Made by a program: the position numbers and the translations under genes
Origin: Warburgia ugandensis
Lineage: Eukaryota > Streptophyta > Magnoliopsida > Canellales > Canellaceae
Assembly (NCBI GenBank): GCA_035236585.1
Contig: CP141126.1
Location: forward strand, 15,327,001 to 15,391,000
Direction of reading: 5' to 3'
DNA length: 64,000 nucleotides
Notes under the pieces: generated by a model
What the model was told of the DNA's origin: nothing
The model's input: the letters and a program-made list of their open reading frames with translations, nothing else
Databases searched by the model: none
Shown here: in pieces, positions 3,302 to 50,700 of the stretch
Layout: each line of letters opens with the position of its first letter
Position numbering within the stretch: position 1 is the stretch's first letter

Positions 3302-4745
3302 AGTCTGAACTTAATTGTTGAAACTTGCGAAGGTTATGAGATCCACAGGCATCAGGCCCTGCAGAATTATTAGAAGCAATTGTAACCTTTTAAGATTATC
3401 TTTTGGATCTTCTTCTTCTTGTTCTCACTTGTTTTTTAGCAACTGAAAGGGTAGTTTTATCAGAGCAATACCCAAGCATTCCATGAACAAAACATAAAAT
3501 GGAAGTTTTCCATCAGGATTTGATGCAAGGTCTTTGCCATATTAAGAGGCAACAACCCTTTTTTAACCAATTTAAGTACTTTGTGTTGGAGTCAAGTGAA
3601 GATGAAAGATGTCACCGATTTTACATGATTGGTTGACACCTTTCATGCAGGGCCCTTCTCTTGTCTAGGAAATTTAATTATAATGTGATAAGATGTGTGT
3701 TGCATTCAGTACTGGAACTGTAGCTCATTTTCTGCATTTTACTAGTTTGTTTTCCGTAGGAATCTTTGTGTCAGTATTATCTAGACTAATGCAACATCCA
3801 TGAGCTCTTTGAGTTGATTGGTTGCTTTGTTTGTAAGGTTCTTGATACTTTCTACCTTCTAAAATTTCATCTGGAAGAAACTCACAATGGCAATTAGGCA
3901 TCTAATGATCTTCTAGCCTGTTGCTGTGAGCAGTGCCGTTCATGTTTGCTTTTAGAATTGAATTTCTTATTAGAATTCTGATGCTGTGGTAATGGATGTT
4001 CTGTGCATCAAGTCATCAACCTACAAATAAAAAGAGAAGATATTTTGTGCATCTGTGTGGCATCAGAGGGTGAAGGCTGTATTCTCAAAGCGTCATAGGT
4101 TATTAAACCCAGGTGAAGATAGAGTGGCTGATTTTAATTGTTAGTAGAATAGCCCTTATGAAGGGATTAAAACTTTTTGTATTCCTTTTTTCTTTTAAGA
4201 TATTTGTTGCATTTTTATTTTTATTTTCTAAAAAGTGAAGGAGATATGGGATATGTTCTTTTATTCTTAGTAACCATGTTGGATGAAGGAATATTGGCAA
4301 AGTGGCATGATGGTGGTACTGGGAATTCTGGGCTTCTTAGCTTTTCCTCCTGCTGTTTGCACTGCTCTCATTTGCCTTGAATTTCAAATAAGAGGGCAGA
4401 GACAAGATGGTAGATGTATATGGAGGCTGTTGAAATGCTTCCTATGATTGTTTACAATTACTACACCATGCTTATATATTAATTTTGAAATTTTTATGCA
4501 GTTGGTTAATTGGGTTGTTGGGGAGCTACTCTCTAGTTACATTTCTCCTTGCGACCAGCACTTGGTTTCTTGGGGTCCACTGGCGTTTCCCTTTAGGTCC
4601 ATTGCTGTGATGGCTTGTTTCATGATATATTTTTAATTGCTTTCAGTCAAATGCTGGGAAAGATTTTCGAGGTCACGAAATCTTGTTCGAAGTATCCCTT
4701 TGTCACAATGTATTGCGCAAAATATCATGTTTCTAACCTTTCAAT
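3302..4745. other. Intergenic DNA, no gene recognised
   Basis: Several short ORFs exist but none shows a domain or codon pattern I trust. A stretch at about 4648-4745 follows a TTTCAG acceptor-like site and stays open for about 30 codons. It could be an unidentified exon of the RING duplicate interrupted by the MITE, but I could not match it. Confidence 0.4.
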
Positions 4746-16960: not shown

Positions 16961-18529
16961 TCAATCGGCTTTTCTCCTGGCAGGCGGCAACTTCCACAAG
17001 GAGCAAAACGAAACCGGCTGCCGTCTCCAGCACAAGCTGGTGCACCCTTTCTCGTCCGCTCTGGTCTCCCAATTGGAATCGTGCTTCCTCAAAAGCGCCT
17101 TCCCACCGTCCGTCGCGTCTTCCCCAAATTCCTCCGTCACAAACCCGACCTTCCTCATTCTCTCACACCATTTCTCCTTGCCTTCATTCATTTCCGACGC
17201 GCTCACCAACGCGCTTGCTGCTTCTGCTTCCATGACGCGCCTCTCTTCGCATTCTCTTCCCTTAAACGCAACACTCGTCGAGTCCAGGAACCTCCGTAAA
17301 AACTCGACTCTTCGAGAAAAACCCGTCGCAAAATCTCCACACTTACTGCAACTGCAATCCATTTCATTCTCACTCAAAACCACCAGATCAGGACCCAAAT
17401 CTCTTAATCTCTGCAGAAATTGAGTTCGATCGTCGGAACATCCATTGCCTTCGTGATTTAGCTGGTGAAGTCTGAATTGTGCGCAGATGACTAGAGTTTC
17501 GTCATCTCTTGATACGCCCAGGGTTTCGGAAGTCAGGTTTTGCAGTTGTTGCCCGTCGATCCGATCAATTTGGAGGTTTAGATTGATCTTTTTGGCGAAT
17601 CGGAGAAGGCGAGAGGGAAAATCATCGGTTGGAGTACCGGCGGCGAAAGCTGCCGAAGGGCCGTTGGATCCGACGACGGTGAGACGGACGAGTGGAGGGG
17701 GTCCGCCAGTCCGGCGAGCTAAGGGCTCCAGCATCGTCGGCCATTGAACGCCATGAGAAACGCCAATGTCGATAATGTGGAGGTTTGGTCGGGAATTTCC
17801 CGGCGAGGTTAAGGTTTGGAGGATGGAGGAGTTGGCGAGTTGGTTTGGGAAGGAAAACCAAGGACTATTTTCGTGGAATTTGAGGAGAGAGGCTTGGAAG
17901 GTTCGCGGTTCGGTGGAGATGAACGTCGCCAAGTTTCCTGAGGCCGACGGTGACAGATGATGCGTTAGGGCACGGAGACCGTACGCGGCAAGACGGTGAT
18001 TCGCGTCGCCGGAGAGCGATTCTAGCTCGTGAATAACGTATAACAGGTGTTGTACACGTGAGAGATTGCCGGAAACAATGGCAGAAGCGCAGGGATTCAA
18101 CAATTGCTCTGCCCACCGTGAATCATTGTTATTTCCGCCGCTATTGTTGTTATGGGCAGTACTGTTACTTCTTCCCGATGGTTTTCTGGCAAGTTTTCGC
18201 GGAGGTTCCTCTTCTTCGACTCCGTTATCATCGCTTAATGTAGCAGAGCGATTTCTCCTGCGTTGTTGAGATGGTTTGGATGTTGAATTGTTAGGCTGTT
18301 TCTTTTTCTTGGGCGAATCCGACGATGGTGGGGGAATTTGAATGGTGGTGAGAGAAGAAGAGGGAGTGTTGATGAGATCATGATCATGATCTTGAAATTG
18401 ATCATTTGGTTGGGTTTGCTCAAACCATGGATAGCTGTTGATTTCGTTGGGGTCATAGGGTTCGTCAAGCAAGGACGGAAGGAACCATTCTGTGATGGAA
18501 TTTGGCTCTGGTTCATCTCCAAGAGGCAT
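16961..18529 (-). CDS. NSP1: NSP1-type GRAS transcription factor
   Basis: A single-exon ORF of 522 residues, counted from the ATG at 18529. It opens as MPLGDEPEPNSITEWFLPSL, like known NSP1 N-termini. In-frame ATGs at 18574 and 18658 would add 15 or 43 residues. Residues about 40-138 are a variable Ser/Asn-rich region with basic patches (KKKK, RRRNR). The GRAS domain runs from about 139 to 516: WAEQLLNPCASAI and HRLAAYGLRALTHHL in the first leucine-rich part, LHIIDIGVSHGVQWP as the VHIID motif (250-264), and a C-terminal SAW region ending VSFCSLWKL. NSP1 acts in the nucleus with NSP2 downstream of symbiotic calcium signalling. It supports nodulation and mycorrhizal signalling and promotes strigolactone synthesis genes. 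The missing introns fit the family. No internal stop or frameshift is seen. Confidence 0.94.
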   Translation of the reverse strand: MPLGDEPEPNSITEWFLPSLLDEPYDPNEINSYPWFEQTQPNDQFQDHDHDLINTPSSSLTTIQIPPPSSDSPKKKKQPNNSTSKPSQQRRRNRSATLSDDNGVEEEEPPRKLARKPSGRSNSTAHNNNSGGNNNDSRWAEQLLNPCASAIVSGNLSRVQHLLYVIHELESLSGDANHRLAAYGLRALTHHLSPSASGNLATFISTEPRTFQASLLKFHENSPWFSFPNQLANSSILQTLTSPGNSRPNLHIIDIGVSHGVQWPTMLEPLARRTGGPPPLVRLTVVGSNGPSAAFAAGTPTDDFPSRLLRFAKKINLNLQIDRIDGQQLQNLTSETLGVSRDDETLVICAQFRLHQLNHEGNGCSDDRTQFLQRLRDLGPDLVVLSENEMDCSCSKCGDFATGFSRRVEFLRRFLDSTSVAFKGRECEERRVMEAEAASALVSASEMNEGKEKWCERMRKVGFVTEEFGEDATDGGKALLRKHDSNWETRADEKGCTSLCWRRQPVSFCSLWKLPPARRKAD

Positions 18530-18771
18530 CGTGTTTGATGGAAATGGAGGGGAGAAGGGAAGCGGTTTTAGCATTTTAATATTTGACTTACGGAACTTTG
18601 GGGCAGAGACGAGAAACTGTAAAGGAGGGATTTTTATCTGGTGGCCGACCGACCACAAGTGTGCGTTTATGACTGGCTGGTGTTTTCTGATTGAGCCATG
18701 GTTTGGGCGGTGCGCTCATAGATTAGTGCATTGTAAGGATTGGCATTGAACTCTGCCTTGTCACGCAAGGA
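18530..18771 (-). promoter_or_regulatory. NSP1 5' leader/proximal promoter
   Basis: The stretch upstream of the NSP1 ATG up to the LINE remnant is only about 240 bases. I see no convincing TATA box. The short distance to mobile-element DNA means more distal control elements may lie beyond the LINE. Confidence 0.35.
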
Positions 18772-23534: not shown

Positions 23535-26500
23535 TGTGACGACCCAGGTTTCAACACTTTTTAATAAAAATTTTCGAAAGGTGGGGCCCTAATTTTTTTG
23601 AAAACAAACAAAACAGTAGAAAACAATTTCAAATGAAATTCATTTTAAGAAAACCCTCGAGTGTCAACCATCAACTCATCACACAACATTTCACTTTTAA
23701 AACTCAATAAATCTTTCATTTAACTAAGTAAACCTTTTCAAAACAAGTTCACTTCTCCAAAACCGATCCAGTCCACAGCTACATTCCCAACAACAATATA
23801 ATCAAGTCCAATAATACAAATATACATATACAGTTCATGTGGAATTAAAACATACCTCCAAATGAGATATCTCAATCACTATTTGTCTGGCTCCTCATCA
23901 GTCATGTCTTTGTCTCAATATTTGAGGCATTGCAACAATAACACAATGTCTCAGTAAGCAATGCTTGGTAGGTACATTAAATAATAAAATGATGGCATAA
24001 AAAGAATAACTCAAATAGTTAGAGCTTATAAGAGCGTAAAGTTTGATAGTCATAGGATACAAATGCTATAAATCATATCAATACAAGTGGCAAAACATCA
24101 CGTACAATAAAACATAGATCATATGAATGTAAAACATAATATGATATAATCTCAATGAGCATACAATAAACAGGCAGGGCACCCCAAGGTACGTGAGTCC
24201 CACAAGTGTCTCATATACTCATACAACAGGTCATAAGTACTTATACCAATCCTTTGAGTGTTATCACTGCCAGGCACCAACATAATATATCCAATCTCAT
24301 CATGCATACTCACATAATAAGTGTATGGACAGTCATGCTATAGTGGTAACCGTACATCCCGGGTCTATTGACTGATGCTCCTTGTCGACACCGTATCGGG
24401 AGACTCATCGTCCATCCTTATGGGTGGGCCTGGACCAGTAGTGTGGAATACCTATGTAAGAACTTTAAAAAATAAAAACCACTTAAAAAATGGAGGGGGC
24501 CATAATTGATACGGACACCCCCCACCCACTTAAAGAAAGAAAAACAGAGAACCACGCGATTGAGAGAGGGAGAAGAAAAGAAGAAAGAGAGAGTGGGGGA
24601 GAAGGAAAGAGGAGAAAGGAGGAGAGGAAACTACACATCCTCCACCCTCCATTTCTCCCATCAACTAAGGGAGGAGGAGATCGACGGTGGAGAAAAGCTG
24701 ACGGTCACCGGAAAAGACAGAGTGAACGGCGTCATTGATCGACGATCGGTGCCGTTCATTGTCTTCTCCTAGCAACCACGAGCAAAAGGCCTATATTTGC
24801 TCGTTGATTTAGCAAGTTTTTGTGGGGAAAAAAGGATGAAAACAGTACCCACGGTGGGATTTGCCGACGACGGGAAAATAAACGGTAATCGCGTTCTTCG
24901 GTGATGATTAGAGGTTGAAGACACTCCTTAAGGATAAGATCTAGGATACTCATCTCTTGAATTTTGGTAGTTTGCAAAATTTATGCATTTTTAACCTAGA
25001 TATATAATTAGGGATGATCCAACTGTCCAATCCCTAATCCAAGGGTAGGGATGAAAAACTAAAGACTTGATGTAGTCTAAATCACACTAGACTGACAGAT
25101 CTAGGCAGGAAATCGATCGGACAATCTCGGTCGTCCGATCGGGTACTGTTTGCACAGTAAATCCTTGATGTCTGATTGATGATCAGACATTACCGATGAA
25201 TCTTAAGACCTTAAATGAGCTAGGATATGACAAAAATTGGGAATAGATGGATGAACTAACTATCTTGATTTGGAAATGTGTAAATTTACTTGAAATTATG
25301 AACATATGGATTTATATTGACAATAAATTCAAATTTTGATTTGGTTAGGTGATAGCTAAGTGATTAAAGGAAGGATATAGTAAATTTGTGGAGTACAAAA
25401 AGGGAGGTAGGTAGTTTGAACATCAACATGCTTGGAATTTACTAGAAACTTGAGATTTTGATCTTTTTAGTTTATGCAGCTATCAAAAAGGTATATTCAT
25501 GCAATCTATTTAAAATGTCAGGTTTACTTTACTATAAGATTGAAAAAAAAAACCAATGCATGAAATTTTATGGTTTTATCAGTTTTATAGGCATGGGATG
25601 CTGCCTAGTATTATTATATTATGACGGACATATTGGAGCCGGTAGACTCTGTGCTAGGAAGATTGAGGACTGATCATCCTCTTTCTTCTGAAATTATATA
25701 TGTATGGTGGATACCTGGCCTGAGGGCCTAATGCAAGCTCATGTCATCATGGACAGGTCATGGCTTGTGTGCTGTGATTTCCATGAACACGGTGCAAAGG
25801 AGTCTATCTGTTTGGTATCGGCGTGATAGCCACGAACTTGATTGGTTCTTGTCCATCGCACAGAGGTTCCATCATTTTCGGGTTTATATGTATATTGCGC
25901 AATAGCGCAGGTGCATGGCACCATGGTATTTCAGGTCAATAATAAGTACTCATAACCAACGGCAGGTGGCCGAATTTGAGTGGTTTTATACTTGTAAAGT
26001 CTTGATGATATTTAGAGTATGTGTGTGTATGTATATATATGGGTGTGCGTATACACTAGTTGAAATACTCTTTATTTACATTTAAGCATTTCCTAGTTTA
26101 AATGCATTTCTCTATTGGTTTTGAGGCATGCGAAGAGTCGTGACTATCTTCCATATCATCTAAATGTCTTACTAAGGTTATTATCATTATTTGGAAACAG
26201 TAAGCATGGATGTTAAATTGACGATTCAAATTGATTGGACATGGAAACTATTTGAAATGGCATGGTATGAATTTTGAAATATATTATACTACTTATTTGA
26301 CATCAAATGAAACAAAATTTCACATATGATAAATTGTTCCTTTTAAATTTAGAACTGCATAAACTTGTGTGTTGATGATGAAACTACCTACACAAGCAAA
26401 GGCTTGCTGAGATATTGTACTTGTTTACAATATCTTAGGTTCGAAGGACTACAGCAAAGGGAAAGACACATCGTTTTGACTTGGAAGCTACAAGGAAGCT

Positions 26501-28917
26501 ATTTTGAGTAAATGTGAGGTATAGGTAAAGATTTCTGAAGGTTCTTACAACTCTTATGTAATAAAAAAAATTGTTTCATGACTATTAGAAATGGACATGT
26601 GAATGTGTATTCATTACTGTTTGACACGAATGGCTATGACTGGATTGATCTTAGGTATACAGGTCAATTACCTAGCCTTTTTGGCATTACTAAAATGTTT
26701 CATTATTTAAATTAAACGAAAATGTGCATGTTGGTATTTGGAGGGAGACAGAGTATCTATCATGGATATTTATATGTACATGATGATTATCAGGTGTCGC
26801 ATTGTATGCGTTAAATGCACAAGGTCTGAAATACAGGGGAGACTCTGCCAGATTTTTGGTAGGAATGTGATGTTCATTCCTCTGAAAATCATTGTTTTTA
26901 ATGGAAAAAAAAAAGATACTCGGGATTTTTAAAGTATTCTTTTTAAAGTTATTCTTCCGCTATTTGGTTTTGAACAGTTTTATAAAAGTATTGGGGCCCC
27001 ACAAAGAAAAGGATTTATGAAAACGTGTTATAAAAACTCGGGATGTCACAACCTATGTTACCAACTCCTACCGAAAGCTATCTGTGAGTAAGTATCTATC
27101 ATCCCATAAATTCAGAGGGTGGGTGCTCGGCCCTAATCTCTCCTAGCATGACATCCGCCGGATGACATCACCCGTCATAAATCACAAAACACAAAAATCA
27201 CGAATCTCATAAAAACTAGGAGGACTCGTGGCTCACCATCTTAAGGCACTCTCTCATCCCAGGGTTAGGCTCTCAAGGACTAACCACTAAGCCTCTATGA
27301 GTATTGCATAAAACCAACCCTCATCCCGGCATTAGGCTCTCAAGGACTAGTTACCAAGCCTCCACCACCAATTTCAAGGAAATCATCCAAACTCACTGAT
27401 GTAGTAAGGAAAAATGTTTACAATTCATTAATAATAAATATATAAGATCTACAATATCAAAATCCAATAAGAAAGATCGCTCATCAAATGTTCTCAATAC
27501 TCTATCAAATTCTCATATCTAAGATAGCAAAATAAATCGAAAATCATAAGTGCACACATGAAACAATCCATGCTATAATAATCCCAAGCAATCAATATGC
27601 CATGATAGTTCAAGATTTTAGAAAATCAATGTGAAACATTTAAATGTCGTCACCTACTTCGATAAGGAAAAATCACTAGATCATGCTCGTACTCCTCTCA
27701 AATCGTATGCTCTAATGTACCGATCAGTATCACAATACTTTTTCATGTTATTCATTTCTATCTATATATCCCATTATAAATTTTTACTTCCTACTTGTGT
27801 CAATTCATAAGTCAATTTGTCCAATGATCCTCTTATCTAGATTACTTGATTTATCTCTATTAATCAATTTTCATGACATCCTACACTCATCTACTTTATT
27901 TGATCATAAATCCATCACTCCTCATTATATGATCTTATTTACTTAGGTTGTTGGTCCACTTTCCACACATGGATCATCTAAGGCCATTAAAGTTCTAATT
28001 AGTCATTCATCAATGACTAATTACTGGTCAAATATGAGGAATAGTGTCAGATCACCCTTTGATATGTTACTCATTCTCTAGGTTGGTGATCTGACAGCTA
28101 TAAGCCCATAAGTGGTCGAATCTTGGTCTCAGTATGTTATTAAATATTTGAGCTAAAGGATCAATGAAATTTAGCACATCTTATGTCAATTCAAAGTTTA
28201 GGAATATAATGGTAGCATCTGATCATAGATTAGATATCGCCAGGCTCTCATGTCCGATTGAATGGTTAAGATTTTCACTCAATTTTTCATCTAGATCTTT
28301 CAATTTCTACCATATACTAGTTAATTCAATGCTCCAAAACTTATCCATGGCGTCTGATCATCAATCAGGCATTAAGAAGTCACTATGTGAATAGTGACAG
28401 ATCGAATGGCTGAGATTGTTTGATCAATTTTTCAACCTAGATTGACAATCTCACTTGAATCAAAGCTATATCAAGCACTTATTTACCTATTCTTAAGTTT
28501 TGATTTGAAAATAGATGGCTGGATCATCTACAAAACCTAGATCTAGCATAAACAGTGCGGATTTTGCAAAATACATCAAATCATGAGTTGGGTTTTGTAA
28601 ATCTTTTCTTTTGGATGCATTTTCGTGCATTTTTCAACCTTGGATGAGCCGGATTGATCACCATATTCATTGAAACCCTCCAATCTCGTTGCACACACTA
28701 CCTCCCCTCCAATCGACAATCTAGATTATCTTGGATCTCCCAATAAACTGGCTATTTTCATCTTGTTGCTGTGCTAGACAAAATGATCGGCTTGGACCAG
28801 TGATCTGATATGGCGTCATCTCCAGCGACGACCTGTAATTCTGGCAGATTCGTAAACCCCTATTTCTTCTTCGCCAGCAAGCCTACCTCCTATGGTGGCC
28901 TCTCTCTCTCTTTCTTG
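23535..28917 (+). mobile_element. Older solo-LTR-like element, split by a younger insertion
   Basis: The left part is 23535-24454 and starts TGTGACGACCC. The right part is 27056 to about 28917. The two join if the insert at 24455-27050 and one ACCTA copy are removed, giving about 2.8 kb. Its left end resembles the inverted right end of the insert (TGTGACATCCCG, then a shared GGGGCCC block). Its right part, inverted, matches the insert's left half (CTGATTGATGATCAGAC occurs in both, with AATCTAGG or GATCTAGG nearby). No gag or pol sequence is seen. The right end is unclear because a SINE abuts it at 28918. Confidence 0.75.
24455..27050 (-). mobile_element. Younger solo LTR nested in a related LTR, with perfect 5-bp target duplication
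   Basis: The insert starts TGTAAGAAC and ends GGGATGTCACA, the TG...CA ends of a retrotransposon LTR. It is flanked by ACCTA at 24450-24454 and 27051-27055. It is 2596 bp without internal coding domains, which fits a solo LTR left by recombination. The strand is assigned relative to the host LTR and is otherwise undetermined. Short ORFs such as 24490-24738 are low-complexity Arg/Glu/Lys readings, not genes. Long LTRs like this occur in Ty3/gypsy families; I cannot name the family. Confidence 0.85.
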
Positions 28918-29085
28918 CCGCAACGGTAGAGTTGTTGTCTTGTGACCTTTAGGCCACGGCTTCAAGACATGAAAACAGCCTCTTGCAAAATGCAAGGTAA
29001 GGCTGTGTACTATTAACTCTTGTGGTCTGCGCCTTCCCCAAACCCTACATACCCGGGAACTTCAAGCAACGAGGCTGCCCTTTTA
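28918..29085 (+). mobile_element. Au-like SINE
   Basis: Starts at the A box (GCAACGGTAGAG), missing a few head bases. The rest is complete: CTTGCAAAATGCAAGGTAAG, the body, and CGAGGCTGCCCTTTTA. It abuts the right end of the older LTR. Confidence 0.92.
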
Positions 29086-30064
29086 CTGGGCGCTCCTCTA
29101 CAATCAGAAAGACATGTATGGTCTATCAACGTACAACAAAGGATTGCTAGTCATTCGATGAGATCACCTGATAAATAAAGCTAAAAGGAAGTGCTCGGCT
29201 CTTGTGAATATCTTTCATCATTTCCTCTAAGTACTCCTCTCTTGTGCTTCATTTTCCCACCAGAGTATTTATAAGAGAGTGAATTTGTAAGAAAAAGTGA
29301 GCGTCTATAAGAAAGACAGCGAGCAAGATGGGCCGTGTCAAGCCAGAGATAGCGAGGGTGGAGACTGCCAAACTACAGCAAGTTAAAGGCCAAGGAATTA
29401 CTGTTCTTAGAAAGCGAGCTTTGGTGCACAGTAAAAGTTGTTGTCACGTGATTTTGAGAACCTGGGTTAAAGACTTGGAAACAGCTTCTTGCAAAAATAC
29501 AATGAAGCACTTTTTCTTACAAATTCACTTTCTTTTTGTTATCAATGGACCCCATGTTATGCTATCTGATTAAGTGGGAGCTTCTGGGACTACTCTTTTT
29601 ATGTGATATTGTTCTTGAACTTGTTCTGGTTTCCCATCAGGCAGGCCTACAGCTTTCATTAATCAGAACAAGTAATAAAATCTATTGCTTTCCCCACTTT
29701 TTCTGAACGATTATTGCTTTCCTTTTCGACTTATGCTATTCATGCAAGAGAAAAAAAAAAAAAAAAAAAAAAAAAACTCTATATTTTTTACCTTTATAAA
29801 TCCTTTGAGAATCTTTAAGCAACCAATATTGTTATCAATGGACCCCATGTTATGTTATCTGATTAAAAATGGGATTTGGGCCATTATCTTTTTGATCCCT
29901 GTCTTAGGATTTGCTAATAGGATCATATTACCTGCAGCACGTTCATTATCCAATCAGGATAAGAAAAACTAACATAATTATATTGATACACTACAACATT
30001 CGTATAATTTATGGTTCTAATTATAACGATAATTAATCTTCTTCGTTGATTTAATCAAGTTATG
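29086..30064. other. Intergenic; decayed sequences, poly-A tract
   Basis: Contains a SINE head fragment, a poly-A tract at about 29752-29776, and a repeated phrase (ATCAATGGACCCCATGTTAT at 29543 and about 29836). The 81-residue ORF at 29328-29573 opens MGRVKPEIARVE. That recalls the first 12 residues of plant MADS-box proteins but loses similarity quickly. Confidence 0.4.
29414..29502 (+). mobile_element. Au-like SINE head fragment
   Basis: A-box half (GCTTTGGTGCACAGTAAAAG), a degraded B box (GGGTTAAAGA) and GCTTCTTGCAAAAATAC are present; the 3' half is missing. Confidence 0.8.
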
Positions 30065-30079
30065 CTTCCTAAAAAGGAA

Positions 30080-30261
30080 GGGGAGCCTTGGCGCAACGGT
30101 AAAAATTGTTGTCACGTGACCTTGAGGTCACGGGTTCAAGGCGTGGAATCAGCCTCTTGCAAAAATGCAAGGTAAGGCTGCCTACTTTAGGCCATTGTGG
30201 CCCGCCCCTTCCCTGGACCCCATATAGGCAGGAGCTTCGTACACCGGGGCTGCCTTTTATA
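30080..30261 (+). mobile_element. Au-like SINE, full length, with perfect 15-bp target duplication
   Basis: Near-consensus copy: GGGAGCCTTGGCGCAACGGT head, intact B box GGTTCAAGGC and complete 3' end. Flanked by identical CTTCCTAAAAAGGAA at 30065-30079 and 30262-30276. The perfect duplication indicates a recent insertion. Confidence 0.97.
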
Positions 30262-30666
30262 CTTCCTAAAAAGGAAACTCTATTATGAGTCTATAGGTGG
30301 TGACACCATTAATGATTATCTATGTTTCTGATGTTTCCTTGTGATTGTTTTTGTTTATTTTCTTGGTTTAGTTTCTTTTTGGATATAACAAGCAAATATT
30401 AGGAAAAATATATTTACTCTTTTCTATAAAAAAAAGAAGAAAAAGTTACAAGACAAGACAACTGGTGAAGTGCTAAATCGAAGCTTGGATGCAAATATAT
30501 ATATATATATATATATTTTTAATATCAAGAAAATGATCTATTTATTCTCTTATTTGATACTTAATACCACTTCTTAATATCCATGTGGGGAAAATCTTTT
30601 CTCATTGTTTAGACAACTACATGTTCCTAGTTCGTATTATAGCATGTAGATAATTTTTCATGTTAT

Positions 30667-44704: not shown

Positions 44705-47700
44705 TCACACAGTATTCTGCGATATTACCTCTCCAAATTTGAGAAAGAGGTTGGCATCAGAAGTGCTGCTTAAGGTGGCACAGTTTACCACTTTTGGGTT
44801 GTTCTTGAGATTGTACTCATCTATGTAGCTTGGCAATGATATAGGTGGTGGCAGGGGCAATGGTTGCTTTGATGGTGCTTCTGCTAGTACCAGCGATTCC
44901 AGGACCCGGGTCACCTCATGCATTGTTGGTCGTTCTGAGAGCTGTTTCTTGGTGCACAGGAGGGCAAGCTGGAAAACCTTCTTCATTGCCGCCAGATCTT
45001 TACATGTGGCAGAGATCTCTGGATCCACGGTCTCCATGACTGTATTGTTGGCTGTCTTTGAGAGTATCTGAAGGGTGAAAAATATGGGAACGATGTAAGT
45101 AAAAGAATATATTGGGTCTGTCTTCATACCTATGGAGTTCGGGAAGAAGAAATGTAAACGGCGGGATTTGCTAGTGATTTAATGGCTAGATTAAATTTCT
45201 AATCTGGACGGGCAAATTTGTCTTTAGTACCCGGAAGAACTACATTACTCGGGACTGTTCAATGAAACTGACCTCCACGCACTACGTATTAGTTAGCGGC
45301 TTTGTTTGACATAGGAATAACAAACCAAAGATGAACACATTAGCCACCAATATTTCATGTTATTGGCAGCCATCAAACATGGTTAAAATTATCAAACTGG
45401 AGTAAATCCATGATCCTTATTGCCATTGCAAATAGCCCCTTTAGATTGTCTTTTCTTGAACAACTTTCTATGCATTATAGGACCACAAATAGCAGTGAAT
45501 AAAATTACGACCCATGGATAAATACAGTAGAAAGCACATCAATGTGGGGACCCAATTAGCATATTGTAGACAATAAATCTCACTCATTGGATAACTTTTA
45601 GCATACTCAAACTGATCTTTCCGGCAAATAGTTGCTTGCTTATACCTTCACTCTCCGAGACAGGCAACAACATTGGATGGTTAGGAAACTGATGTAGGAC
45701 AGTATGCAGAGCTCAAAATTAACTTAAATAAGAAAACAAAATTTAAATTATACCAAGCAATTTAACGTTAAAAAAATCAGTCTTAATTAGCATGAAATCT
45801 CTAACAATTAATGTAAGATTGATGTTTGAATCCAGATAGCCCCACTAATTGACGAACGATCCTAATTAAGCTTTGGATCTAAGGTTCAGGAATTTAATGC
45901 AAGATAAGAATTTTGGATTATTACTGACACAAATCACATAACTGTACAGTTCAAAAATCTACTATTAAAAGACAAGGTTAAAAAGTACTGACTTACATAA
46001 TAGGATGAAACAATAATAATTCGACCTCGTATCAAATGCGGCTTTGCAACCACAAAAAGATAGAATTGTCCTTAAGTCCCAACAAACTAAGAAACCTAAT
46101 ACTCTTAGTGGTAAATATTTAAAGTTAACTATAACATAACATTTTAAAAAAAGAAAAGAAAAAAAAGTGGGATGATGGTCCCCATCAGAAGCACTGAGAA
46201 ATGCTGTTCCCAGCCCAGCCCTACCCCTGGACAACTAGTTGGATATCTTTTAGACAAGAAAGCTCACTCATTGGATAACTTTTAGCATTCTCAAACTGAT
46301 CTTTCCGGCAGACAGTTGCTTACACCTTCACTATCTGAGAAAGCCAACAATGTTGGATGGCTAGGAAACATTGAGAAATGCTGTTCACGACCCTAACCAT
46401 GGAAACCCAGCTAACCAGCAAATGCTTGCCAACAGCTTATAGATAAAATTTCAGCATAGAGTACAGGATAACTTTTAACAATATAAAAAAACAGCTGCCC
46501 AGTATAAGTTCCCTCCCCCCCACCCCGCATATGCGGGATCTGAAAAAGGGGCAGACTACAAAGGATGCATTTTTGTAAGAGGCTGTTTCCGCGCCTCGAG
46601 CCCGTGACCTCAAGGTCACATGACAACAACTCTACCGTTGCACCAAAGCTGCCTTCTAACTTTCAACAATATCAAAATGCATAAAAAATTGAAAGCTTAA
46701 AGTCAGGGGAGTAATTACCAGCTGGTGGAGATTGCATTCATTATCTACTGCTTTCTTTCCTGTCAGTAGCTCTAGCAGCACGATTCCATAGCTGTAAACA
46801 TCTGATTTTTCATTGAGGCGGGAGGTCCGAGCATATTCAGGATCTATGTAACCAATGGTACCCATGATGTACGTGGAAGTGTGAGACTTGGATATGCAGA
46901 GGTTTTTTGCTATTCCAAAGTCGGTGAGATGAGCCTCAAGGTCTTTATCCAAGAGTATGTTAGATGATTTCACATCCCGGTGGATTATACGTGGGCTACA
47001 GTCATGGTGGAGATATGCCAATCCATGAGCAGCACCTAAAGCAATCTGCAGGCGGCTATCCCAATCCAATTTCTTCTTCTTTGATGGGCCTGTTAAGGAA
47101 GATAGAACAAGTGTTTCACTTGGGCCATTTAACAGTGATTTTAGAATGGCATGGAATAATATGATATATAAAATTAAAGCAAGATGAGAAATGCCACTAA
47201 ATGTAGGTAGCAGTTGCATACGCCAGTTTAAATGCAGGCTTGTTTAAACATTTATTGGTGCATCCTAATAAATGAGTAAACCATCACCATATTGAAAACA
47301 AACACAACTTCTCAAGAATATGGGTGGTGCACTGATCAAAGGTGAATTTATGGTTTGATGTTCTTGTATTATATTTATTACTTATGCTGAATGCTTATGC
47401 TAGACAGTGAACTACTCCTACTTAACTGTAGCAACAATCTTGTGTCCCAAACTAGCCACTTACCATGCAAGAGATCCCAAAGGCTCCCGTTTTCCATGTA
47501 GTCATAGAAAAGAAGGTTCCCTGCAGGAGATAATGAATATCCTTGGAGGCTAACTAGATTTCGATGCTTGATGCTCCCAACAGTCTCAAGCTCTGTCTGG
47601 AATTCCTTGAGGCTTTGAGGATGATGAGAGTAAATTCTCTTGATGGCCACGGGATTGCAGTTTTTCAGAAGACACTTATACACTGTGCTTGATGCTCCAC

Positions 47701-50700
47701 AGCCAATAATGTACTTTTCATTTAAATTCTCAGTCATTCTCATTATGTCTTCGTACACATGTAAAGCCATGTTCATGTGGAGGATTACCAGTTTGGGTGC
47801 GATATTGGTTACTGCAAAAAGAACATCAGCTAAAATAACGTGATTTTCTTAGATAAAATCCTGCATGACATCACAATTTTAGAGAATCCTATACCATGCT
47901 TAGTGGAAATAATAGAAAACCCACCCGGCTTGCTAGGAGATTCTTCTGAAAATTGTGGAGGATTGTAAGGACGACATGCTGCAACTAAAATCATGAGAAG
48001 TATAGCAAGGGAGCCCAAAGCAATTGCAAGAATTGCAGCTTTAGAGATTGGCGCTGCATAAACAAAGTTCCGGAGAAGTAAAATCAGAGGTTTTATCTCT
48101 GAACTGAAGTTTTTGTAAAATGACTACAAAGATATGATGAAATGACTAGTTTTTCCTCAATAAAATGCAGTACGCAGCAGATTTGAAGACAAATGTTTAT
48201 ATGACTTTTTTACACTACCAGTGACTAGGTTTCTAAGCGAAGAGCTGCTTTTGCACCATAACTTGAAACCATTTTCCATGAAACCACAGTTGGACGTTAG
48301 TTATATTATAAAAGTGAGCTTGTGGCTGTATGATCTGGTAACTAAAATATCCTAGTATTAAGTTGTAAAACTAGTAGAAAACAGTCGATTTTACCTCTCT
48401 CAGGTGAATGAGATGTATGGCATGAAGAACTGAACCAATAGCTACAAAGGCCAGGATTCCCTAAGAAGCTGCATTCAACACAGTCCAATGATCAATCAAG
48501 GTACTGAGAAAATGATTAAGATATTACAGACACCATACACATGATGGAAGGCAAATCTATGTCAAAACTTACTGGTTTCTTAACCAATCAGTTCTTTGGA
48601 TTCAAGTAGCTAACCATGAAATTGCCTAGCGAACATGGGCATATTGCATTCAACGTTAAAGTTTTCTACTAAGTCTGATAAGTAGAATAATCTCCAGCAT
48701 TCTCACCTATCTTGAGAGAACCTTGAGAAGTTGTTGCCCCTGGGAATATCACCAGCTAGATTGTTGTAAGATAAATTTCTGGTTACATACAGCAAATTCC
48801 ATTGTAAGCAATATTTTCCAACTATTGTACAATGAAGTAGTCATACAAGATATCACTATGGCAAAGTGCACTTACAGGACAGTCAGACTGAGGCAGTTGA
48901 CCAATGAGAGTACTTCCCCTGTTAAATTATTATTTTCTAGTCTCCTGCCAAAACGTAACATTAAAGCTTGTGAAAAGTTGGTGTCGGCAAATCCAAACTG
49001 AGCAAACAAAATAGTAACAGTGGGAGCTCGGTAGGTCAAGCTTTCTTCATTACAAAATGATAAAAGAACCATAGCTGAAGGTTCAGGCACTAAGGTGACC
49101 CCATCTGCATTGCAACAACATGAACTTACAGCGAATACAGATTTTGGAGCTGACCAAGTTCCTCAGGAATAGAGCCTGATAGGTGATTATTTGACAAATC
49201 TCTACAAAGAACAATAACCAATAGCTTATGATTGGTATTAGCAAAAGCATTATGCCAGATCAGTATCAACACTGTTAGTTCTCACATTCGGTGAGAAATT
49301 ACTTACATATCCATGATGCTTCTCAGATTTCCAAATTCTGCTGGGATGTATCCAACTAGATGATTTTTGCTTACATTTCTAAAAAGAACACAAATTATAT
49401 CAACAAAATGAAGCCTTTATAGGCCAAGAGGAATCAACTCAATAAAACTTACAGTTTCAGAAGATGCTCCAGGTCACCAATAGAATCAGGGATGGAACCA
49501 CCGATCCTGTTATCTGATATGTCCCTGAAGAAAAACTCAAATTTTAGCAGAAGGTAATTAAAGCACCTAAAATTTGTTGAGATGCTCACACTCACAGAGT
49601 ATCTAAGTTACCAACTCTGGAGAGCTCGATAGGTATTGCACCCCTGAGATGGTTTGATGACAAGTTCCTGGGTAAAGCAATGAAAAAAGGTCACCGAAGT
49701 TGGGAGTAAGCTTGTGTCCACAATTCATAAGTAGACTAACCAAACCCAGAAAAGCAAAATATCAGTTGCATAATAAAAAAAATTTGGGCCAATTTGAAAA
49801 CCAAACCAGGAAAACAATACAATAGAATGTTGCATATGATAATGCTAGCAGAGCATCACCCAAGCAGAAGTTATATTTCATGCCAAATATAATGGATTAC
49901 ATCAGACACACTTAAACAACTGCCCTTCAGGTTTAATAAAACAATAATTTTGCATTGCATAAGGGCTTACAAATGTGCCAAGCTCTCAAGTCTTTCAAAT
50001 GCCCACGGGATAGTCCCATTCAACCTATTGCCATGCACATTGCTGTGACCAAATGAATGTATCAATAAGAACTTCAAATGCATAAACAACAATGCTAATC
50101 ATCAAACAAAGGCTCAATGCTTACAGGCTATTGAGATTGACACACGAGCTCAGATTTTCAGGTATTGGCCCCTCAAGATTGTTGTTAGCAACATTCCTGC
50201 AAGACTATGCTTTAGTAAATTACTCGACTAAGAAACTCAAGGGCCTTGAGCAGATGAATGAAACACTGTTCTGGCTAAGTGAAACAACTCCAAGGGCTCC
50301 AAAGATTACAGGTCAAACAAGTCAGTGAGCCTCCCAAGCTCAGGTGGAATATGCCCAGTGAGCTGATTATCATTCAATTCCCTGAACAAGAGTTAATGTA
50401 TCAGCACCATAATAGCACAGCCCATGCTATATTCAAACGAGGAAAATGACATATTGCTCCTTACAGATAGTGAAGTTTTGTCATGTTCCCTAGATCTGGG
50501 GGAATTGAACCCGTTAGCTTATTACCATGCAAGTACCTATGCAAGGATAGACGCCATCAAGACAATAAGTAATGTCCAGATACTGGTAAGTTAGAAGTAA
50601 TTAAGCGATGTTGCAGCATCATTTGAAATTTGAATTAAAAAAGACAGAGAGAAAATATACTGTAGCCTTTTTCACCCAAAGCACTGATTACGAAAGACAG

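Follow-up and report, generated by a model that had tools for sequence, protein, structure and literature searches.

A younger chromovirus solo LTR nested in an older LTR of a related but distinct family

The locus described here is a younger chromovirus solo LTR (the insert) nested in an older LTR of a related but distinct family (the host). It lies in a 64,000-nucleotide window, the whole stretch of DNA that was analysed (C1:15327001-15391000; the genome comprises 1.12 Gb in 14 contigs), and positions are counted from the first letter of that window. We consider it very probable that a chromovirus inserted into an older related LTR, that its two LTRs recombined, and that one end of the host was lost later. 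The nesting is an ordinary LTR-in-LTR event; the record is clean, and the kind of event was already known. Within a gene-bearing stretch, the locus preserves in order two retrotransposon waves, the removal of internal DNA and a subsequent erosion. It is usable as a single data point on clade-level nesting and leaves the understanding of LTR elements unchanged. The features of the locus are as follows.

23535..24454, minus strand: host LTR, 3' part; matches of at least 400 bases at about 76-84%, with 5/14 copies starting exactly at 23535
23535..23665, minus strand: host 3' terminal block, homologous (inverted) to insert 26915-27050, 66%
24450..24454, no strand: target-site duplication ACCTA, left copy; target single in 12/12 relatives tested
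24455..27050, plus strand: solo LTR of a chromovirus (probably Tekay/Del), with TG..CA ends, ACCTA duplication and genomic copies
24930..25255, plus strand: insert block homologous to host 28286-28611, 66%; 67% to the host-family LTR L059
26915..27050, plus strand: insert 3' terminal block, homologous to host 23535-23665, 66%
27051..27055, no strand: target-site duplication ACCTA, right copy; target single in 12/12 relatives tested
27056..28913, minus strand: host LTR, remainder; at least 58 genomic pieces; outer (5') ~210 bp missing at the right
28286..28611, minus strand: host block homologous (inverted) to insert 24930-25255, 66%
28914..29084, plus strand: putative Au-like SINE abutting the truncated host LTR; 22 other window stretches match it at E<=1e-4

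The insert is 2596 bp long, with TG...CA ends and identical ACCTA pentamers on both sides, as originally predicted. Solo LTRs form by LTR-LTR recombination, which leaves a single LTR and the target duplication with the internal region gone; the insert follows this general pattern, and no difference was apparent. A genome search with the insert block returned at least 48 matching pieces (the insert itself counted), a lower bound because the best 40 of 5288 candidates were scored. At least 34 other genomic loci match 2400 or more of the 2596 bases at 89-95% identity. The ends were examined in 28 insert-family copies, the window copy among them. Perfect 5-bp duplications stood directly at the LTR ends in nine copies, which are solo LTRs; a polypurine tract (TATAAGGGGAGGAGAA and variants, recognised by eye) preceded the LTR in six; and GTTGGTATCARAGCC, which we take to be a tRNA-Met-type primer site, followed it in five (two sites flagged by a script and three, with one base changed, recognised by eye). 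The other eight copies were truncated, had imperfect duplications or were unclassified. The primer sites and polypurine tracts at the copy ends give an LTR polarity of TGTAAG to GTCACA, which places the insert on the plus strand. Primer-site matches to TATCAGAGC at 3458, 60162 and 63203 lie far from the locus and were rejected as its primer site.

Excision of the insert joins the two halves of one LTR. All 12 relatives tested, drawn from 14 fetched host-family copies and perhaps including paired LTRs of one element (L055, L056), align across the excised junction, each with a single copy of the target stretch (ACCCA or similar). At 23535, where the plus strand reads TGTGACGACCC, the TGTGAC boundary is a true LTR end: the alignment begins at exactly this base in 5/14 host-family copies, and for some of the other nine the fetched locus was cut or the copy truncated. 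Host-family copies with readable ends start TGTAACATCC, and in L059 and L020 the bases before this start, TATAAGGAGGGAAGAA, look like the polypurine tract of the insert family. Together, these observations put the host on the minus strand, so that 23535 is its 3' end; no primer site was seen to the left of 23535, and the host is therefore not a 5' LTR. The junction, the boundary at 23535 and the opposite orientation of insert and host bear out the original prediction, to which the LTR polarity, read from the ends of family copies, is an addition. A search with host piece 27056-28900, in which the best 40 of 7020 candidates were scored, gave at least 58 matching pieces, the window itself counted, and the other pieces had 71-89% identity. 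Among the matches listed, three were near-complete, at 78, 80 and 81%. One host-family LTR, L060, was readable end to end; it is 2924 bp long and ends ...TCATCACA.

Remnants of PR and RT were found beside host-family LTRs (37-52% over 23-63 aa, E 3e-7 to 5e-5). They are badly decayed, and none of the three host-family coding pieces tested matched Pfam. C4:9489500-9492500 (L042) was dropped as a candidate for host-family internal DNA, as it had no pol match. A stronger PR match (L014:206-634, 52%, E=5e-45) was not used for the host family, since it sits where the host-like LTR should continue and may belong to another element.

Terminal branches agree with the nesting in making the host the older unit and the insert the younger (~0.100 and ~0.035 substitutions per site), as had been proposed. 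The exact values come from two trees, one with 15 LTRs of the host family (host 0.0998) and one with 36 LTRs of the insert family (insert 0.0348); they are relative only, because the trees hold best-scoring copies and the lengths include decay of methylated cytosines. The insert tree comprised 35 copies and the insert, four of 39 fetched copies with coverage not above 2200 bases being left out, and was bush-like, as after a burst. The LTR pair L023/L024 differs by 0.047 and the probable pair L038/L049 by 0.046, or ~0.023 per LTR.

Inverted homology between insert and host had been predicted at both ends and was recovered when the excised, joined host was aligned with the reverse complement of the insert. 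Host 28286-28611 matches insert 24930-25255 over 330 columns (66%, 133 bits), and host 23535-23665 matches insert 26915-27050 over 143 columns (66%, 44 bits), against 34 bits for the best of 200 dinucleotide shuffles and 22.6 bits for the best same-strand match. One more reverse match (31 bits) lay inside the range of the shuffles. Of the "large imperfect inverted repeat" described earlier, the inverted homology stands, but the size was overstated, being about 330 + 140 columns at 66%. The host-family LTR L059 aligns with insert bases 13-390 at 70% (E=1e-49) and with bases 476-801 at 67%; much of the block matching bases 13-390 has been lost from the host in the window. L060 aligns with the insert at 63% over 388 columns and 76% over 70. 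In pieces from the two families (L024, L035, L043), the 39-44 bases ahead of the 3' LTR, with the tract counted in, agree at 85-86%. On sequence, both families probably belong to one clade.

The usual threshold for a family is the 80-80-80 rule, with ~80% identity over most of the length; insert and host share 66% in two blocks that add up to about 470 columns. A strict autoinsertion, with insert and host in one family and the host merely older, would fit the similar LTR ends (TGTAA...TCACA), the similar polypurine context and the collinear blocks at 63-70%. We regard it as decidedly unlikely, since the copies fall into separate sets (89-95% for the insert and 78-81% for the host), the 66% likeness between host and insert is confined to blocks, and the host-family LTR L060 measures 2924 bp against 2596 bp for the insert. 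We classify insert and host as two families from these comparisons, and the idea of a family inserting into its own LTR was not supported. The inverted homology within a single locus might also suggest an assembly artefact or an inverted duplication in place of transposition. This is hardly credible, given the exact 5-bp duplication, LTR ends common to other copies and empty sites in 12/12 relatives; an inverted match at 66% is also of far greater age than a recent duplication of this kind would allow. Transposition into an LTR of a related family is the reading that we retain.

At the right, the limit of host homology varies by relative, from 28610 to 28915. Position 28917, previously taken as the LTR end, is an LTR-SINE junction: L058 and L060 continue for ~225 bases past 28897-28901, to ...GATGTTACA. 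About 210 bp of the outer host LTR are absent from the window, as judged from an outer-end measurement that worked in two of the four copies tried (L059 matched elsewhere, and L011 showed no end). The adjoining SINE (~28914-29084) is presumably of the Au type. Other SINE copies in the window begin GGGGAGCCTTGGCGCAACGG or close variants, several with duplications; by eye, the copy at ~28914 has CTCTTTCTTGCCGCAACGG at its start, without the usual first bases or a recognisable (left) target duplication. The 330 bases to the right of the SINE (29091-29420) matched only themselves in the genome, in a search that skipped very common words. A host target duplication was sought in 28600-29700, where the flank GTCAA recurs exactly once (29337-29341), after ...GGCCGT and not after CA. 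That position was rejected as a host LTR end, as was a one-mismatch GTAAA at 29431, which follows CACA but lies within a SINE fragment; host-family homology was not seen to extend to either site. The description of both units as solo LTRs has consequently been demonstrated for the insert alone, the host retaining its 3' end at 23535 and lacking the outer end and a recognisable duplication.

The host may be read as a solo LTR that lost its end or as the 3' LTR or some fragment of an element from which everything else was deleted along with the outer LTR end. The second reading is a compatible variant of our main explanation, and we hold it to be a serious possibility, if the less probable one. 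It is in keeping with the missing outer end, the unrecognisable duplication, the right flank that matched only itself, and the lack of a primer site to the left of 23535, which excludes a 5' LTR. A solo LTR losing its end later, however, requires a smaller deletion only, and the internal pieces compared match nothing in the flanks except simple repeats.

In the main explanation, a younger chromovirus from a related family inserted on the plus strand into an old chromovirus-like LTR on the minus strand, with a 5-bp target duplication; the observations above establish the insertion, its duplication, the relative age, the kinship of the LTRs and the solo state of the insert. The two LTRs of the younger element would then have recombined, removing the internal region and leaving the 2596-bp solo LTR; we infer this route from the form of the insert. 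Separately, the outer ~210 bp of the host would have been lost, most simply by a deletion ending in or next to the Au-like SINE, which may have joined the host LTR to the first bases of the SINE.

A search of the window found internal domains of neither family (tblastn with six insert-family pieces gave a best E of 0.04), and both family assignments consequently rest on genomic copies. One insert-family copy, on contig C9, has two LTRs and chromovirus domains. In this copy, L023 is followed by the primer site, L024 is preceded by the polypurine tract, and GAAAG stands on both outer sides. Between the LTRs, Pfam matches to RVP_2, RVT_1, RNase H and a zinc knuckle occur in separate stop-free frames. 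The integrase zinc-binding domain scored above the Pfam cut-off, rve below it (28.0 against 32.6 bits) and Chromo just over it (25.3 against 25.1 bits); a PDB search with the chromodomain piece gave no match. The chromodomain frame stops ~46 bp before the 3' LTR. The domains lie on the minus strand of C9 in the order PR-RT-RNase H-integrase-chromodomain, by which the insert family is classed as a Ty3/gypsy chromovirus.

Bongo1-3 of sugar beet are Tekay (Del) chromoviruses, i.e. Ty3/gypsy elements with a chromodomain at the integrase C-terminus. They have a tRNA-Met primer site no more than three bases from the 5' LTR, a polypurine tract directly before the 3' LTR, 5-bp duplications and LTRs mostly of about 2.6-3.0 kb, and the distance from chromodomain to polypurine tract has been called clade-specific (PMC3605345). 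The insert family resembles them in chromodomain, primer site, polypurine tract, 5-bp duplications and LTR length. It differs in being another family with decayed copies, and the likeness is one of layout. We probably deal with a member of the Tekay (Del) clade, because the long LTRs, domain layout and primer site match those of the beet Tekay elements.

A survey of 12 plant genomes listed 1491 nested pairs and reported autoinsertions, including those of Tekay in potato, tomato and Gossypium raimondii; "family" there denotes clades such as Tekay, and LTRs are described as not commonly targeted (PMC6911290). The present locus resembles those autoinsertions in that a young LTR element lies within an older one, probably of the same clade in the broad sense. 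It differs in having an LTR as its target and, as its insert, what is now a solo LTR; the word "solo" is absent from the main text of the survey (PMC6911290). If both families are Tekay, the locus is an autoinsertion in the sense of that survey (PMC6911290). We doubt that chromoviruses of the insert family hit targets of their own clade above chance expectation; besides the present locus, one further copy with a perfect duplication (L033) lies in a related element.

Further observations concern other copies of the two families. L033 (C8:71591219-71594240) is an insert-family solo LTR with a perfect AAGAG duplication inside what remains of pol in a related element, in the PR-RT interval, and its flanks on both sides match pol piece L041 at 71-73%. 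Another insert-family solo LTR, L007 (C14:46088360-46093971), has a host-family-like LTR stretch (68-79%) ~660 bases off. At L005 (C5:72446069-72451689), the flank outside the insert-family 5' LTR resembles, by eye, the internal part of a SINE, and a SINE match lies ~670-830 bases away. At 27898-27912, several host-family copies (L015, L018, L020 and L055 among them) carry ~200-300 extra bases that the window host, L059, L060, L011 and L013 do not have; past this point, the copies with extra bases are only 70-76% like the host, and from these sequences the host family may perhaps comprise two subfamilies. Within the host LTR, at 27253-27362, a 43-bp stretch is repeated after 67 bases at 84%.

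Au-like SINEs are very dense across the window: 23 stretches reach E<=1e-4, the query and some short fragments among them, which makes ~1 every 2.8 kb. Clear target duplications accompany several, one example lying around 30060-30275. Scans of the window against Rfam and for tRNAs gave no matches. The window also holds, in keeping with a plant genome, protein-kinase exons on the minus strand (46659-47776, of which 46659-47219 and 47381-47776 match Pkinase) and, at 16961-18655 on the same strand, a GRAS-domain gene in a single frame.
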